From Prevotella sp. (lineage in GTDB: Bacteria; Bacteroidota; Bacteroidia; Bacteroidales; Bacteroidaceae): a stretch of 64,000 bases of DNA. Below, piece by piece: positions 3,323-57,901 of this stretch. The notes under the pieces were generated by a model, which was given only the letters and a program-made list of their open reading frames with translations, had not been told where the DNA came from and did not search any database. Within the stretch, counting starts at the first letter, position 1; the number at the start of each line of letters is the position of its first letter. The stretch lies in assembly GCA_017557405.1 (NCBI GenBank), contig JAFYYV010000051.1:62001-126000 (forward strand). The letters run 5' to 3'. The translations under genes and the position numbers were made by a program.

Positions 3323-4651
3323 ATGAAACGAATTTATCTTTGTCTAGCTCACATGAGCGGCAACGAAATGAAGTATATCCAAGAGGCATTTGATACGAAT
3401 TGGGTGGTGCCTTTGGGGCCAAATGTGAATGGGTTTGAAGAAGATCTCCGGCACTTCGTGACTAGCACAGAGAACGCAGAGGAGACGGAGAACACAGAGA
3501 TGTTGGATAAACGAGTGGTAGCTTTGTCATCAGGTACGGCAGCGGTGCATTTGGCATTGTTGGTATGTGGTGTTGGTCCAGGAGATGAGGTGATTTGTCA
3601 GAGCTTTACATTCTGTGCAAGTTGCAATCCCATTATGTATCTTGGAGCAACTCCTGTACTTGTGGATTCGGAGCCAGACACATGGAATATGGATCCTGAG
3701 TTGTTGGAAGAGACTATCAAGGACAGAATTGCCAAGACGGGAAAGAAGCCAAAGGCGATAGTTCCTGTATATCTTTATGGAATGCCAGCAAAGTTGGATG
3801 AAATCATGGCGATTGCAAGAAAGTATGAGATTCCCGTTGTTGAAGACACCGCCGAAGGATTAGGTTCACGTTATAAAGGGCAAGTATGTGGTACATTTGG
3901 GGATTATGGTGTACTTTCGTTCAATGGTAACAAGATGATCACAACGTCTGGAGGAGGTGCGCTTATTTGTCCGAATGAAAAAATGTGGCGACGTGTAATG
4001 TTTTTTGCCACTCAGGCTCGCGAGGCTTATCCATATTACCAACATGAGGAGATTGGCTATAATTATCGCATGAGTAATATTTGCGCAGGTATCGGACGTG
4101 GACAGATGACGGTGTTGGAAGAGCATATTGCTCATCATCGACATGTTGCCGATATGTATCGTGAGGCATTCAAGGATGTTGATGGCATTACATTCCATGA
4201 TGAATGCCTCACCCCCAACCCCTCTCCAGAGGGCGAGGGGAGTGATAAGTACATCCCGTTGATGAAGAGTAACTTTTGGCTCTCGACCATCTTACTGGAT
4301 GAGAATCTGCATGTGAAAGGTGAAGAGAATGCATACGCGGAAAGTGTGGCAGGGGCTGTTGGTGGAGCGGCTGGAGTCGTACATGGAGGTGGCTCCGTCC
4401 ATACGGATTGCGAACCCAACAGGAATGTTGAGGCTTTGCGAATAGCTCTTAATGCTGTTGGAATAGAATCACGTCCTCTTTGGAAGCCTATGCACAAACA
4501 GCCAGTTTACAAGCATGTACCTGCATACGTGAATGGCGTTTCGGAAGATTTGTTCCATAAAGGATTGTGTCTACCTAGTGGACCTTGCGTCTCTGATGAC
4601 GATGTGGAGCGGATTATTAGTGCTGTAAAATCAAATCTTATTGTTTTTTGA
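3323..4651 (+). CDS. DegT/DnrJ/EryC1-type PLP aminotransferase (PglE-like), carrying repeat-derived inserts
   Basis: A 442-residue sugar aminotransferase. The start MKRIYLCLAHMSGNE matches the family. The cofactor signatures are ALSSGTAAVHLAL (about 67-79), VVEDTAEGLG with Asp175, and the Schiff-base lysine in SFNGNKMITTSGGGAL (Lys204). Family members convert a UDP-4-keto-6-deoxy sugar to a 4-amino sugar with glutamate as donor. The dehydratase at 4952 would supply the substrate. Two stretches look foreign: an acidic ENAEETENTEM segment near residues 50-60, and LTPNPSPEGEG at about 296-306, the translation of a dispersed DNA repeat. Both keep the frame and spare the catalytic residues, so the enzyme may still work. 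The family call is firm; the exact sugar is inference. Confidence 0.9.
   Translation: MKRIYLCLAHMSGNEMKYIQEAFDTNWVVPLGPNVNGFEEDLRHFVTSTENAEETENTEMLDKRVVALSSGTAAVHLALLVCGVGPGDEVICQSFTFCASCNPIMYLGATPVLVDSEPDTWNMDPELLEETIKDRIAKTGKKPKAIVPVYLYGMPAKLDEIMAIARKYEIPVVEDTAEGLGSRYKGQVCGTFGDYGVLSFNGNKMITTSGGGALICPNEKMWRRVMFFATQAREAYPYYQHEEIGYNYRMSNICAGIGRGQMTVLEEHIAHHRHVADMYREAFKDVDGITFHDECLTPNPSPEGEGSDKYIPLMKSNFWLSTILLDENLHVKGEENAYAESVAGAVGGAAGVVHGGGSVHTDCEPNRNVEALRIALNAVGIESRPLWKPMHKQPVYKHVPAYVNGVSEDLFHKGLCLPSGPCVSDDDVERIISAVKSNLIVF
3466..3500 (+). repeat. Low-complexity cacagag/acggag insert inside the aminotransferase gene
   Basis: A purine-rich stretch built from near-repeats of cacagagaac and gcagaggagac encodes an acidic run (TENAEETENTEM) between the N-terminal helix and the KRVVALSSGTAA motif. 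DegT relatives as I know them are shorter here. It looks like a short repeat expansion or insertion kept in frame. I see no second copy in this window. Confidence 0.4.
4207..4242 (+). repeat. Dispersed GC-rich palindromic repeat inserted in frame in the aminotransferase gene
   Basis: The segment from cctcacccccaacccctctc to gaggggag is a partial inverted repeat (cccctct...gcgagggg). In this frame it reads LTPNPSPEGEG. A close relative in reverse orientation, with the ggggtgagg end, lies between genes at 44686-44720. A looser relative follows the HU gene at 42631-42662. The length keeps the frame open. Confidence 0.75.
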
Positions 4652-4750
4652 TGTTGTACAAGTGGTTTGTACTGACAGTACAGATGGCTTGTACTAAGAG
4701 TACAAAGGGCATGTACTAATAGTACACGGGGCTTGTATTGTATCTAAACA
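4644..4750. repeat. Palindromic tandem array A, 22-bp period (TGTAC/GTACA arms)
   Basis: Three perfect palindromes TGTACT-nnn-AGTACA begin at 4668, 4690 and 4712, exactly 22 bp apart, with decayed units in register at 4646 and 4734. Read as 7-5-7-3 the units are TTTGTAC-tgaca-GTACAGA, CTTGTAC-taaga-GTACAAA and CATGTAC-taata-GTACACG, with linkers tgg, tgg, ggg and ggg. The array lies between the aminotransferase stop and the dehydratase promoter, and its first decayed unit overlaps the end of the aminotransferase gene. The rest of the 300-bp gap holds an AT-rich stretch and the promoter core. The architecture equals that of arrays B-E although the arm sequence differs. Confidence 0.9.
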
Positions 4751-13743: not shown

Positions 13744-13879
13744 CTCAAAGGGGCACTTTGAGCTTCTCAAAAGCCATTTTTGACACGCTCAAAGACCATC
13801 AATGAGACGGTCAAAGCTATGCAATGACAAACTCAAAGCTATGCTTTAACAAATGTAGAGAATGTAAAGAAAACGGAAG
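13744..13879. repeat. Palindromic tandem array B, 22-bp period, with conserved 21-nt flank
   Basis: Five units start at 13744, 13766, 13788, 13810 and 13832, each 7-5-7-3. Examples are CTCAAAG-gggca-CTTTGAG, GTCAAAG-ctatg-CAATGAC and CTCAAAG-ctatg-CTTTAAC. After the last unit come 8 nt, then 13859-13879, whose reverse complement (cttccgttttctttacattc + t) is identical to 57505-57525 beside array D, also 8 nt from the first unit. The rest of the 707-bp gap between 13440 and 14146 is AT-rich. I see only the two promoters there. Confidence 0.92.
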
Positions 13880-20418: not shown

Positions 20419-21822
20419 ATGAAAAAATTCATGGACGAGAACTTCCTGCTTGAAACACAGACCGCGCAGGAACTTTTCCACAATCATGCGGCTAAAATGC
20501 CCATCATCGACTATCATTGTCATTTGAATCCCGAGATGGTTGCCAACGACCACAAGTTCAAGAGCATCACCGAAGTGTGGTTGGGCGGTGATCATTACAA
20601 ATGGCGCGCTATGCGCACAAATGGTGTGGCTGAACGCTTCTGCACAGGTAAGGACACCACCGATTGGGAGAAGTTCGAGAAATGGGCGGAAACGGTTCCT
20701 TACACGTTTAGAAACCCGCTATACCATTGGACTCATCTGGAGTTGAAGACGGCTTTTGGAATCGAAAAGTTGTTGAGCCCCAAGACTGCCCGTGAGATTT
20801 TCGATGAATGTAATGAGAAACTCAAACAGCCGGAGTATTCTGCTCGAGGTTTGATGCGCCGTTATCATGTGGAGTGTGTCTGCACGACTGACGACCCAGT
20901 TGATGATTTACGTTATCACAAGCAGACACGCGAGAGTGGATTCGAAGTCAAGATGATTCCCGCGTGGCGTCCTGACAAGGCGATGAATATTGAGAAGCAG
21001 GATTTTGCCGCGTACGTGAACCAGCTTGGCGAGGTAAGTGGTGTGACTATCACAAAGTTCGCCGATATGCTCGATGCATTGAAGAAACGCCATGATTTCT
21101 TTGCTGAGAATGGTTGCAAGCTGTCTGATCACGGACTTGAGGAGTTCTATGATGAAGAATATACTGATTCGCAGATAGAGACCATCTTTGAAAAGGCTAT
21201 GCGTGGCCAGCAGCTTTCTGAATTTGAGATTCGTCAATATAAGAATTGCTTCCTTACGAAGATGGCCGAGATGGATAGTGAAGCCGATTGGACACAACAG
21301 TTCCATTATGGAGCCATTCGCGACAACAACACGTTGATGTTCAATCAGTTAGGTCCTGATACGGGATTCGATTCCATTGGCGAGTTCAATACAGCTCGTG
21401 CAATGAGTCGCTTCCTGAACAATCTCAACACTGAAGGAAAACTCGCGCGTACCATTATATATACGTTGAATCCGTGCGCTAATGAAATGATTGCAACTAT
21501 GCTTGGCAACTTCCAGGATGGTTCGTGTCCGGGCAAGATACAGTTTGGTTCTGGATGGTGGTTCAATGACCAATTGGATGGTATGACCCGTCAAATGAAT
21601 GCTTTGTCGGTGCTGGGTTTGTTGAGCCGTTTCGTGGGAATGCTCACCGATTCTCGTTCGTTCTTGAGTTATCCCCGCCACGAATATTTCCGCCGTCTGC
21701 TTTGCAATCTTTTGGGCAACGATGTGGAGAAAGGTCTGCTTCCCAACGATATGGAGACGCTTTCGCGGATGGTTGAGGATATTTCGTATAACAATGCTCG
21801 CAACTACTTCCGTTTCTATTAA
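20419..21822 (+). CDS. uxaC: Uronate (glucuronate/galacturonate) isomerase
   Basis: A 467-residue member of the amidohydrolase superfamily. The metal-binding start is PIIDYHCHLNPEMVAND, followed by EVWLGGDHYKWRAMRTNGV, CTTDDPVDDLRYH and QFHYGAIRDNN, and it ends LSYPRHEYFRRLLCNLLG with WFNDQ upstream. It converts D-glucuronate to D-fructuronate and D-galacturonate to D-tagaturonate, the entry to pectin and glucuronoxylan sugar use. No other uronate genes are adjacent. A terminator follows. Confidence 0.97.
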   Translation: MKKFMDENFLLETQTAQELFHNHAAKMPIIDYHCHLNPEMVANDHKFKSITEVWLGGDHYKWRAMRTNGVAERFCTGKDTTDWEKFEKWAETVPYTFRNPLYHWTHLELKTAFGIEKLLSPKTAREIFDECNEKLKQPEYSARGLMRRYHVECVCTTDDPVDDLRYHKQTRESGFEVKMIPAWRPDKAMNIEKQDFAAYVNQLGEVSGVTITKFADMLDALKKRHDFFAENGCKLSDHGLEEFYDEEYTDSQIETIFEKAMRGQQLSEFEIRQYKNCFLTKMAEMDSEADWTQQFHYGAIRDNNTLMFNQLGPDTGFDSIGEFNTARAMSRFLNNLNTEGKLARTIIYTLNPCANEMIATMLGNFQDGSCPGKIQFGSGWWFNDQLDGMTRQMNALSVLGLLSRFVGMLTDSRSFLSYPRHEYFRRLLCNLLGNDVEKGLLPNDMETLSRMVEDISYNNARNYFRFY

Positions 21823-21846
21823 AAACGAAGTTGAATTTTAGTGATG

Positions 21847-21891
21847 TTGCCAGGCGACTTTCGTTTTGGGAAGTTTCCTGGCATCGTCTTT
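21847..21891 (+). terminator. Terminator after uxaC
   Basis: TGCCAGG (21848-21854) pairs with CCTGGCA (21877-21883), extended inward by ACTT/AAGT, and is followed by a short T-rich tail. Confidence 0.7.
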
Positions 21892-22020
21892 TCTGGGGTT
21901 TGGTGAACAAATGCCAAATTCAATTTGTCAGCAATAAGTCATTTTTCGTGACATTATGTAAAGCAAAACGCGCATTTAAATAACCGTTTTGTTGAGTATT
22001 TTTACTTATCGTCTGGTTTC

Positions 22021-22127
22021 GTCAAAGCTATCCTTTGAGCCTGTCAAAGCATATCTTTGACCGTCTCATTGCTATGCTTTGACAACCTCAAAGCATAGCT
22101 TACATTTTGTCAAAGCGCCACTTTTGG
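22021..22127. repeat. Palindromic tandem array C, 22-bp period
   Basis: Five units start at 22021, 22043, 22065, 22087 and 22109: GTCAAAG-ctatc-CTTTGAG, GTCAAAG-catat-CTTTGAC, CTCATTG-ctatg-CTTTGAC, CTCAAAG-catag-CTTACAT and GTCAAAG-cgcca-CTTTTGG, with linkers cct, cgt, aac and ttt. The outer units decay. The array is bracketed by inverted near-copies of CGTCTRGT (22010-22017 and 22139-22146). It fills much of the 423-bp gap between uxaC and the export lipoprotein. The AT-rich remainder holds only a terminator and a promoter. Confidence 0.92.
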
Positions 22128-22181
22128 TGAACGCTTTCACTAGACGACAAATAAAATTTGAATGATTTTTCAGCCGATTTC

Positions 22182-34352: not shown

Positions 34353-35735
34353 ATGAAGAAGCATTTCCTTTTACTCGTGATGCTGCTGCCAGTAGTAGCA
34401 AGTGCAGATATCGTGAAGTATCAAGACCTTTATTACAATTTAGTGTTAGAAACAAAACAGGCTGAAGTAATAAGCACTGTGGAAGCTATGGAAAATAAAC
34501 ATCTTGAAGGCATTCCGAATATCCCTAAGACGATTGAATATAAAGAAGAGGAATATAGCGTAACGAGCATAGGAGACCACGCTTTTGCTAATTGCAATGG
34601 TATAACCTCTATCACGATTCCCTCTAGCGTGACAACAATAGCAGACTATGCCTTCTATAATTGCAATGGCCTGACCTCCATCAAGATTGGCAATGGCGTG
34701 ACGAGCATAGGTGCCCATGCTTTCGATGGTTGCAGCAAACTAACCTCCGTCACGATTCCCAATAGCGTGACAACCATAGGCGAATGGGCATTTTTTAGAG
34801 GCTTCCGCCTATCCTCTGTCACGATTGGCAATGGCGTGATAGTCATAGGAGACTATGCTTTCTGCACTTGTAGCGCCCTGACCACTGTCACAATTCCCAA
34901 CAACGTGACAATAATTGGAAAAGAGGCCTTCCGAGATTGCAGTGGCCTGACCTCCGTCACGATTGGCAATGGCGTGACGCGCATGGGAAATCGTGTTTTT
35001 AATAGATGCAGCGGTCTGACGGCCATTACGGTTGATGGCGGCAACTCTTCGTACGCCAGCGAGGACGGCGTGCTGTTCAACAAAGACAAAACGACGCTCA
35101 TCCAATATCCCCAAGCCAAGAGCGAGACGTCTTACGTCATCCCCACCAATGTGACGAGTATTGAAAAAAATGCTTTCGAAGGTTGCCACAATCTTACTTC
35201 TGTCACGATGCCCAACGGCTTGTCGCGCTTAGATCACAATGTTTTCTTCGATTGCAGTAGCCTGACCTCTGTAACCATTGGGGAAAGTATTAGTTGGATT
35301 GGAACTTCTTTCGTTAATTGCCCACAACTGACAGACGTCTTTTGCTTAGCGGAAAACGTACCTTCTGCAGCCACTAATGCCTTTGAAGGCTCTAACATCG
35401 AACATGCGACTCTGCACGTGCCTGCTGCATCGGTTGATGCTTATAAAGCAGTAGCGCCTTGGAGTAATTTCAAAGAGGTTGTGGCTATAGACGGTAGTCT
35501 AAATGGAGTTGCTTCCGTATCAGCTCGTTCCGTGATGATTCAGAATAATGGCAGTACCTTGAACATACAGGGAACAGATGATGGTTCGACTATCAACGTG
35601 TATAGTGTAAATGGTACGCAAATCAACTCCGTAGTAAGCAGCAAGGGCCAGGCAGTAGTCAACACCACCCTGCAAAAAGGCAGTATGGCCATTGTGAAGA
35701 TTGGGCGGAAGTCGGTTAAAGTCGTTATGAAATAA
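34353..35735 (+). CDS. BspA-like leucine-rich-repeat surface protein with C-terminal sorting domain
   Basis: A 460-residue protein with a signal peptide (MKKHFLLLVMLLPVVASA). About ten BspA/LRR_5 repeats of roughly 23 residues follow the pattern VTSIGDHAFANCNGITSITI, from about 70 to 340. The C-terminal 70-80 residues (VMIQNNGSTLNIQGTDDGS, INVYSVNGTQINS, MAIVKIGRKSVKVVMK) look like a type A T9SS sorting domain. Such proteins are exported to the cell surface and can bind host or partner proteins. The repeats are also visible in DNA as diverged 69-bp units. It has its own promoter and terminator. Confidence 0.9.
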   Translation: MKKHFLLLVMLLPVVASADIVKYQDLYYNLVLETKQAEVISTVEAMENKHLEGIPNIPKTIEYKEEEYSVTSIGDHAFANCNGITSITIPSSVTTIADYAFYNCNGLTSIKIGNGVTSIGAHAFDGCSKLTSVTIPNSVTTIGEWAFFRGFRLSSVTIGNGVIVIGDYAFCTCSALTTVTIPNNVTIIGKEAFRDCSGLTSVTIGNGVTRMGNRVFNRCSGLTAITVDGGNSSYASEDGVLFNKDKTTLIQYPQAKSETSYVIPTNVTSIEKNAFEGCHNLTSVTMPNGLSRLDHNVFFDCSSLTSVTIGESISWIGTSFVNCPQLTDVFCLAENVPSAATNAFEGSNIEHATLHVPAASVDAYKAVAPWSNFKEVVAIDGSLNGVASVSARSVMIQNNGSTLNIQGTDDGSTINVYSVNGTQINSVVSSKGQAVVNTTLQKGSMAIVKIGRKSVKVVMK

Positions 35736-42675: not shown

Positions 42676-42760
42676 GCTACATGCCACATCTAAGCGTCTC
42701 AGGTGATACATCTGAGGCGCTTACTTGTATCACCTAAGGGCCTTACATGCCACATGTACC
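42676..42760. repeat. Palindromic tandem array E, 22-bp period (CTTACAT/ATGTACC arms)
   Basis: Four units start at 42676, 42698, 42720 and 42742: GCTACAT-gccac-ATCTAAG, CTCAGGT-gatac-ATCTGAG, CTTACTT-gtatc-ACCTAAG and CTTACAT-gccac-ATGTACC, with linkers cgt, gcg and ggc. The gccac centres and CACAT-type arms match the last two units of array D, while the register equals all other arrays. It lies between two convergent genes. Confidence 0.9.
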
Positions 42761-57183: not shown

Positions 57184-57504
57184 TATTCGTTGTTGTTGAT
57201 TTGGCTGCAAATTTAGTAAAATTCTGCCATTCCGCCCCCATGTTCCCCATCTTTTAGTGATTTTTCAATGTTTTTCCGCTTTTCTCCTTTTAATACTTGC
57301 AATACAAATGAACCTTTAAAGTTGCCTGAAATATTCCTCTCAACACATCGATTCTTCGCTTCATAGCATCGGAAAGTAAAACCGATATTGTCAAATAAAT
57401 TCTGAATTTTGGTGCCACGAGAAGGCCCACATTTCAAAATAAAAACCATTTGCTCGCAAATACGCGAATTCTGGGCGTTTTTAGAAAACGCTGACTATCA
57501 ACCA

Positions 57505-57662
57505 CTTCCGTTTTCTTTACATTCTTTAGGCCTGTCAAAGCTATGCAATGACCTTGTCAAAGCTATGGAATGAGCTCGTCACAGCTATGCTTTGAGGCCC
57601 TCAAAGCTATCATCTAACCGTGTCATATGCCACATCTGACAGCCTCACATGCCACATGTGAC
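57505..57662. repeat. Palindromic tandem array D, 22-bp period, with conserved 21-nt flank
   Basis: The flank 57505-57525 (cttccgttttctttacattc + t) is followed by 8 nt and six units starting at 57534, 57556, 57578, 57600, 57622 and 57644. The first four have GTCAAAG-ctatg-CAATGAC-type arms. The last two are GTCATAT-gccac-ATCTGAC and CTCACAT-gccac-ATGTGAC, so the array changes arm family without losing register. The rest of the 718-bp gap (57184-57901) is AT-rich, with a -7 element at 57871-57878 and no convincing ORF. Confidence 0.93.
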
Positions 57663-57901
57663 AATTCAACTGCATAAAAAACAAAGAAAAGGAGTTGAAA
57701 AATCATTTTCCCACCCCTTTTCCTTCTCTAGATTGAACGAAAATGATGACAAAATTTTGTCATCTTTTTTCGCATTTCTTATTTTTCTATTGTCCTGTCA
57801 ATTATGATTCTCACAAGGCTTGTGGATGATTTTTCTTTCCCAAAACTCCTTCTATTATGGAATCATTTTGTATCTTTGTAACATCTAATATCAATATAAT
57901 C

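Follow-up and report, generated by a model that had tools for sequence, protein, structure and literature searches.

What are the evenly phased palindromic arrays that lie between the genes of this Prevotella genome, and what might recognize them? The window, the whole 64,000-nucleotide stretch that was analyzed, comes from a genome of 3.56 Mb in 54 contigs. A sequence-only reading of the window had named five arrays, each with four to six 22-bp units built as a 7-bp arm, a 5-bp centre, a second 7-bp arm and a 3-bp linker. Phased arrays are present at all five places. The range of unit numbers holds for the arrays at 57534 (six), 13744 (five), 42676 (four) and 4656 (four) and fails for that at 22021, in which three units are clear and two more appear only at a laxer cut. 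The segment delimited from 57505 starts within an unrepeated leader, and its array begins at 57534.

4656..4738, no strand assigned: array of four units, second class (GTAC-N9-GTAC-N5)
13744..13850, reverse strand: five-unit array within a reverse-oriented copy of element A that is old and diverged; counterpart at the matching place in RUG11493 (L217)
21904..22114, no strand assigned: composite element B, whose array at 22021-22083 has three clear units; copies in RUG11493
25043..25079, no strand assigned: no array here, in contrast to RUG11493 (array at L215:2973-3079)
42676..42760, no strand assigned: four-unit array of the STYA class, resembling the arrays at L181:9349 and L185:6659
57388..57760, forward strand: composite dispersed element A (leader, array, tail), from own-genome matches
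57388..57533, forward strand: unrepeated leader of element A (25-copy alignment, mean column identity 82%)
57534..57662, forward strand: array of six 22-bp units, STCA-N11-TGAS-N3, in the middle of element A
57663..57760, forward strand: tail of element A, ending near GACAAAATTTTGT (25-copy alignment, mean column identity 75%)

The query for element A was one copy plus upstream sequence; 26 of its 47 own-genome matches span 57388-57760, and four more cover most of this core. Arrays are found in several composite repeats with differing flanks, some of which share parts, and many stand alone; arrays were assigned to these repeats by eye. As in MITEs, the copies are many, dispersed and without a gene, given that no ORF of at least 100 aa lies mainly over an array. 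By majority or plurality, the ends of 62 arrays outside elements A and B have symmetric letters, reading G-TTTT-GTCA ... TGAC-AAAA-C. No offset shows a clear excess of target-site duplications in these 62 arrays, an absence that may reflect age. No transposase was recognized by eye among the ORFs upstream of element-A copies at two loci. At L010, L014 and L083, about 0.5-0.65 kb more conserved sequence lies upstream of the element-A copy; this segment may extend the leader or be a separate, second dispersed repeat.

Frequency, period and genomic setting of the arrays

The arrays far exceed chance. In an unselected 365-kb sample of the own genome, a motif scan finds 15 runs of at least three 22-bp units, one of which (L191) looks chance-like by eye, versus 0.2 expected (one run in five mononucleotide shuffles). 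Extrapolation from this sample gives about 140 arrays per genome. The sequence-only reading had proposed shuffled sequence as a control for the dyads themselves, and its claim survives that comparison: the window contains five runs of at least three dyads with at least 5/7 pairs, two of which (4655 and 4666) are one array in two phases, versus a mean of 0.18 and a maximum of 2 in 100 dinucleotide shuffles. When sequence-blind dyad runs are scanned over periods 14-40, the window has five at period 22 and at most two at any other period, and the unselected sample has seven at 22, six at 29 and at most three elsewhere. A larger set contains 35 runs at period 22, an excess that comes mostly from stretches picked for holding arrays, and AT-rich periods 14-15 and 27-29 are also frequent there. 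The motif-based count is stronger evidence for period 22 than the sequence-blind scan.

The predicted intergenic bias is borne out for the main class of arrays, none of whose 95 examined members lies more than half inside an ORF of at least 100 aa; six overlap an ORF end by 13-35 bases. In the GTAC-class set, 6 of 34 arrays lie mainly in an ORF of at least 80 aa. Neighbouring genes show no orientation bias: of the 89 arrays with a neighbour on either side, 38 lie between co-directional, 26 between divergent and 25 between convergent genes. Five units are most common in the 69 arrays outside element A (33 arrays), followed by four (17), six (10), three (7) and seven (2); the 26 element-A copies among the 95 arrays were entered as six-unit. 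No neighbour gene recurs convincingly, given that the nearest ORFs on each side of the 95 arrays form clusters of at most 3, or at most 4 when 34 further arrays are added. Exact unit patterns of either class have 0 matches in viral contigs, and the element region has no match in plasmids. Separately, 69-bp tandem repeats at 34555-34978 of the window lie within an ORF, which perhaps encodes a repeat protein.

Unit layout and arm classes

Does every unit follow the 7-5-7-3 layout? It does not. The main class is STCA-N11-TGAS-N3, in which several of the supposed arm positions are unpaired. Across 479 main-class units, positions 2-4 and 16-18 (TCA/TGA) are near-invariant, and pairs 7/13 and 8/12 form above shuffles (z 12.7 and 17.5). 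Pair 6/14 stays at shuffle level, pairs 1/19 and 5/15 fall below shuffles (z -5.1 and -3.3), and pair 9/11 falls far below them (z -16.2). Because of this pairing pattern, the main-class unit is not a 7-bp hairpin but a dyad whose short half-sites flank a partly oriented centre. The junction of two STCA units, TGAC-NNN-GTCA, resembles the inner part of the MatP site matS.

The array placed at 4644 departs from the 7-5-7-3 layout altogether. Its units, together with those of four more loci, form a second class, GTAC-N9-GTAC-N5, with the same period of 22 as the main class, and the phase originally assigned to the 4644 array falls on its linker dyad. The two classes have similar centres. The central 9-mers of 19 GTAC units lie at a mean distance of 1.0 from the centred main-class 9-mers, versus 3.47 +- 0.22 for shuffled words and 1.7-3.8 at ten other offsets. 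Most of this match is position-wise composition, given that a column shuffle that keeps the composition of each position still yields a distance of 1.29 (p = 0.013).

The proposal that selection acts on dyad spacing rather than on sequence is not supported as regards freedom of sequence: TCA/TGA is near-fixed in the main class, the arm classes have central words in common, and a large number of the arrays within one genome are copies related to each other.

Arm letters in related genomes

An exact-pattern scan of one genome per species, which may leave out records very near the own genome, finds 24 stretches, all in three MAGs from ruminants: RUG11493, an uncultured Prevotellaceae, has 16 of them, Prevotella sp. 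RGIG7148 has 7 and Prevotella sp. RGIG2694 has the remaining one. An STCA model matches in 4 of 60 genomes of the genus, own genome included, with 109, 22 and 2 matches in RUG11493, RGIG7148 and RGIG2694, respectively (150 candidates scored each). A GTAC model matches in 30 of 299 genomes of the genus, again including the own genome, and in 14 of 131 good ones; because this model carried the base pairs and the register, its array set leans towards both.

The outer arm letters are mostly private to a genome and symmetric. GTAC/GTAC prevails in most fetched loci, TTAC/GTAA occurs in four genomes (G028, G155, G180 and G213), GTGC/GCAC in two (G011 and G241) and CTAC/GTAG in one (G316) and, mixed with other letters, in G078 and G201. 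Arm changes between genomes are mostly compensatory, the pattern that the sequence-only reading had suggested looking for; exceptions are G071 and G306, in which most units are ATAC/GTAC with an unpaired outer letter. An array at L331 (G124:C249) has a 22-bp period and GTTTC/GAAAC arms, perhaps another arm class.

Where does this symmetry arise? Among 238 units from 27 genomes, pair 1/17 is standard in 83%, versus 46% if the two positions were independent. After within-genome shuffling, 82% are still standard, indicating that the symmetry is set per genome. In the same units, pairing at the inner positions 6/12, 7/11 and 8/10 is lower than after within-genome shuffling. In 11 genomes, the majority base reaches 0.91 at arm positions 1, 5, 13 and 17, which are those not used for selection, versus 0.67 at inner positions and 0.56 in linkers.

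These patterns bear on whether the arrays function as chains of short hairpins in transcripts. The partial self-complementarity of GTAC-class units would suit such a role. However, independent RNA hairpins predict compensation within a genome, and neither the inner pairs of the GTAC class nor main-class pairs 1/19, 5/15, 6/14 and 9/11 exceed their shuffles. Moreover, the window has no Rfam match at gathering scores, and the consensus fold of element A is weak in 25 leaders (-7.07 kcal/mol, covariation term -0.63) and empty in 25 tails. We thus regard an RNA role as very improbable. A dimer with species-specific half-sites predicts symmetry per genome, and the half-sites of a homodimeric DNA-binding protein would fit the arrays better than RNA hairpins because the arms are nearly fixed within a genome while the inner bases vary.

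Register and turnover

Is the 22-bp register as constant in relatives as had been supposed? For eleven distinct arrays of RUG11493, the two flanks occur in the same order in the own-genome sequence compared, where nine of the gaps contain an array and two do not; the stretches compared were mostly chosen for arrays, so these counts are no rate. Three further pairs bring the comparison to 12 array pairs, which were split by eye afterwards into eight that align and four that do not. The aligned arrays are 0.60, 0.82, 0.96, 0.79, 0.89, 0.97, 0.97 and 0.91 identical, and their +-120-bp flanks are, in the same order, 0.58, 0.74, 0.83, 0.74, 0.74, 0.85, 0.86 and 0.67 identical, so that array identity equals or exceeds flank identity in 8/8 pairs. 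For the 13744 pair with +-250-bp flanks, the order is reversed (array 0.60, flanks 0.69). Across the eight pairs, the 812 array columns contain a single gap, exactly 22 long, and the 1898 flank columns contain 12. In the four non-aligning pairs, array identities are 0.34, 0.55, 0.56 and 0.48, gaps measure 30 and 2, and the best alignment obtained by shifting or inverting an array resembles that of random array pairs. Two other pairs are untidy: L153/L099 (RGIG7148) has a 17-column gap in the first unit, and L141/L087, of doubtful orthology, has two gaps. A constant register thus stands for the eight RUG11493 pairs, where the only gap is a whole unit, and not for these two. Given the aligned, non-aligning and untidy pairs, the arrays are either kept, with the register mostly intact, or replaced.

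Mere descent could produce part of this picture. A MITE-like repeat with a minisatellite may have spread recently, such that register and arms are alike only through the youth of the copies, slippage alters the number of units and no protein reads the dyads. Many arrays are visibly related copies, which explains part of their uniformity and counts against recognition by a protein. One pair differs by exactly one unit, and whole-unit changes are described for the BrickBuilt element (PMC4596501). Nevertheless, the arms remain near-fixed in units that have diverged at their inner bases and linkers, arm changes between genomes are symmetric, and none of the eight aligned arrays is less conserved than its +-120-bp flanks. 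We consider descent alone unlikely.

Alternatively, the arrays could be a chromosome-organizing or regulatory platform of the host, bound by a nucleoid or regulatory protein, with transposition being incidental. The spread of the arrays over the sampled contigs, the unbiased orientation of neighbouring genes and the matching places of several arrays in RUG11493 are consistent with this idea. It is difficult to reconcile with the presence/absence differences, with non-orthologous arrays in the same gaps and with patchiness within the genus for the two models used, and we judge it improbable.

A proposed stacked docking platform and its putative partner

We propose that the arrays are probably intergenic, repeat-borne docking platforms for a putative homodimeric DNA-binding protein. 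Each 22-bp unit would be one dyad site, with a short half-site on either side of a semi-conserved centre. Such sites, mostly three to seven per array, would be stacked approximately two helical turns apart and would place dimers side by side on one face of the DNA. Non-autonomous MITE-like repeats would carry the platform as one of their modules, and it would also occur on its own. Its half-site letters, variable between species and nearly fixed within a genome, would mirror the specificity of a single protein for each array class. The arrays with their register and dispersal, the intergenic bias of the main class, the similar centres and the mostly symmetric arms that differ by species are observed; the protein, its cooperative binding and any role in moving the element or in serving the host are inferred from them. 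More tentatively, the arrays may represent a class of platforms in many Prevotella species, with stacked palindromes, a fixed two-turn register, species-private arms and similar centres, which could co-evolve with a putative DNA-binding protein that mobilizes them or coats them as short filaments.

Which protein tracks the arrays? The cooperative dimer of the sequence-only reading is retained insofar as a dimeric DNA-binding protein fits best; the partner was not found as a RAYT, which does not track the arrays. The Y1_Tnp domain (PF01797) has a match in 13 of 20 genomes, including relatives with few or no detected arrays, is absent from the array-rich genomes G085 (RUG11493) and G084, and has a weak partial match in G000. 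RAYT is disfavoured as the partner, given that this distribution opposes array richness. The Mu/TnsB-type transposase domain (PF09299) has no match in the 20 genomes, and control genomes are equally silent, which makes this result uninformative.

If the docking-platform proposal is correct, the arrays would be the visible trace of a DNA-binding specificity that shifted several times in one genus under an unchanged register, and would offer a natural series in which to follow joint change in a protein and scores of its sites. They would also constitute a Prevotella repeat family comparable to REP/BIME.

Comparison with known systems

The RAYT distribution also bears on whether the arrays are themselves a REP/BIME system moved by this Y1 transposase. 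Similar to REPs as described in the literature, the arrays are intergenic, palindromic, high-copy, lineage-restricted and mosaic in arrangement. In contrast to REP/BIME, they lack an association with RAYT, stack head to tail at a regular 22 bp and have symmetric arms instead of a tagged hairpin, with inspection by eye revealing neither a GTAG nor a CGTC tag at the palindromes. Together with the absence of Y1_Tnp from array-rich genomes and its presence in array-poor relatives, these differences make a RAYT-driven system extremely unlikely.

The open-licence literature, which gave BrickBuilt and REP, yielded no description of 22-bp dyad arrays in Prevotella. In build, the closest element described is BrickBuilt, a MITE of Porphyromonas gingivalis. 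BrickBuilt (PMC4596501) consists of a leader, a tandem minisatellite and a tail, with some copies lacking leader or tail; it is reported as intergenic, gains and loses whole units, has a 23-nt unit, IS5-like TIRs (GAGACCTTTGCA) and short TSDs at some copies, and is reported only from P. gingivalis and P. gulae. The likeness comprises a Bacteroidales host, an intergenic setting, change by whole units and, in element A only, a leader and tail around tandem repeats; many of our arrays have neither. The arrays differ from BrickBuilt in their period of 22, dyad units and several arm classes, and in ends that by reading are of the TTTTGTC...GACAAAA type, with no TSD detected.

Phased sites of similar length are also familiar from plasmid replication and transposition. 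Iterons and protein sites at transposon ends (R6K, Mu, Tn7) comprise several roughly 22-bp sites in helical phase, as the arrays do. They belong to one origin or transposon end, however, and lack the palindromic units and the hundred or so chromosomal copies of the arrays.

As docking platforms, the arrays would further mark spots between genes where species differ through turnover. At 21822-22157 and 57273-57534 of the window, synteny with RUG11493 is interrupted next to arrays.

The block between these two breaks (22157-57273) is collinear with a single RUG11493 contig, apart from gaps.
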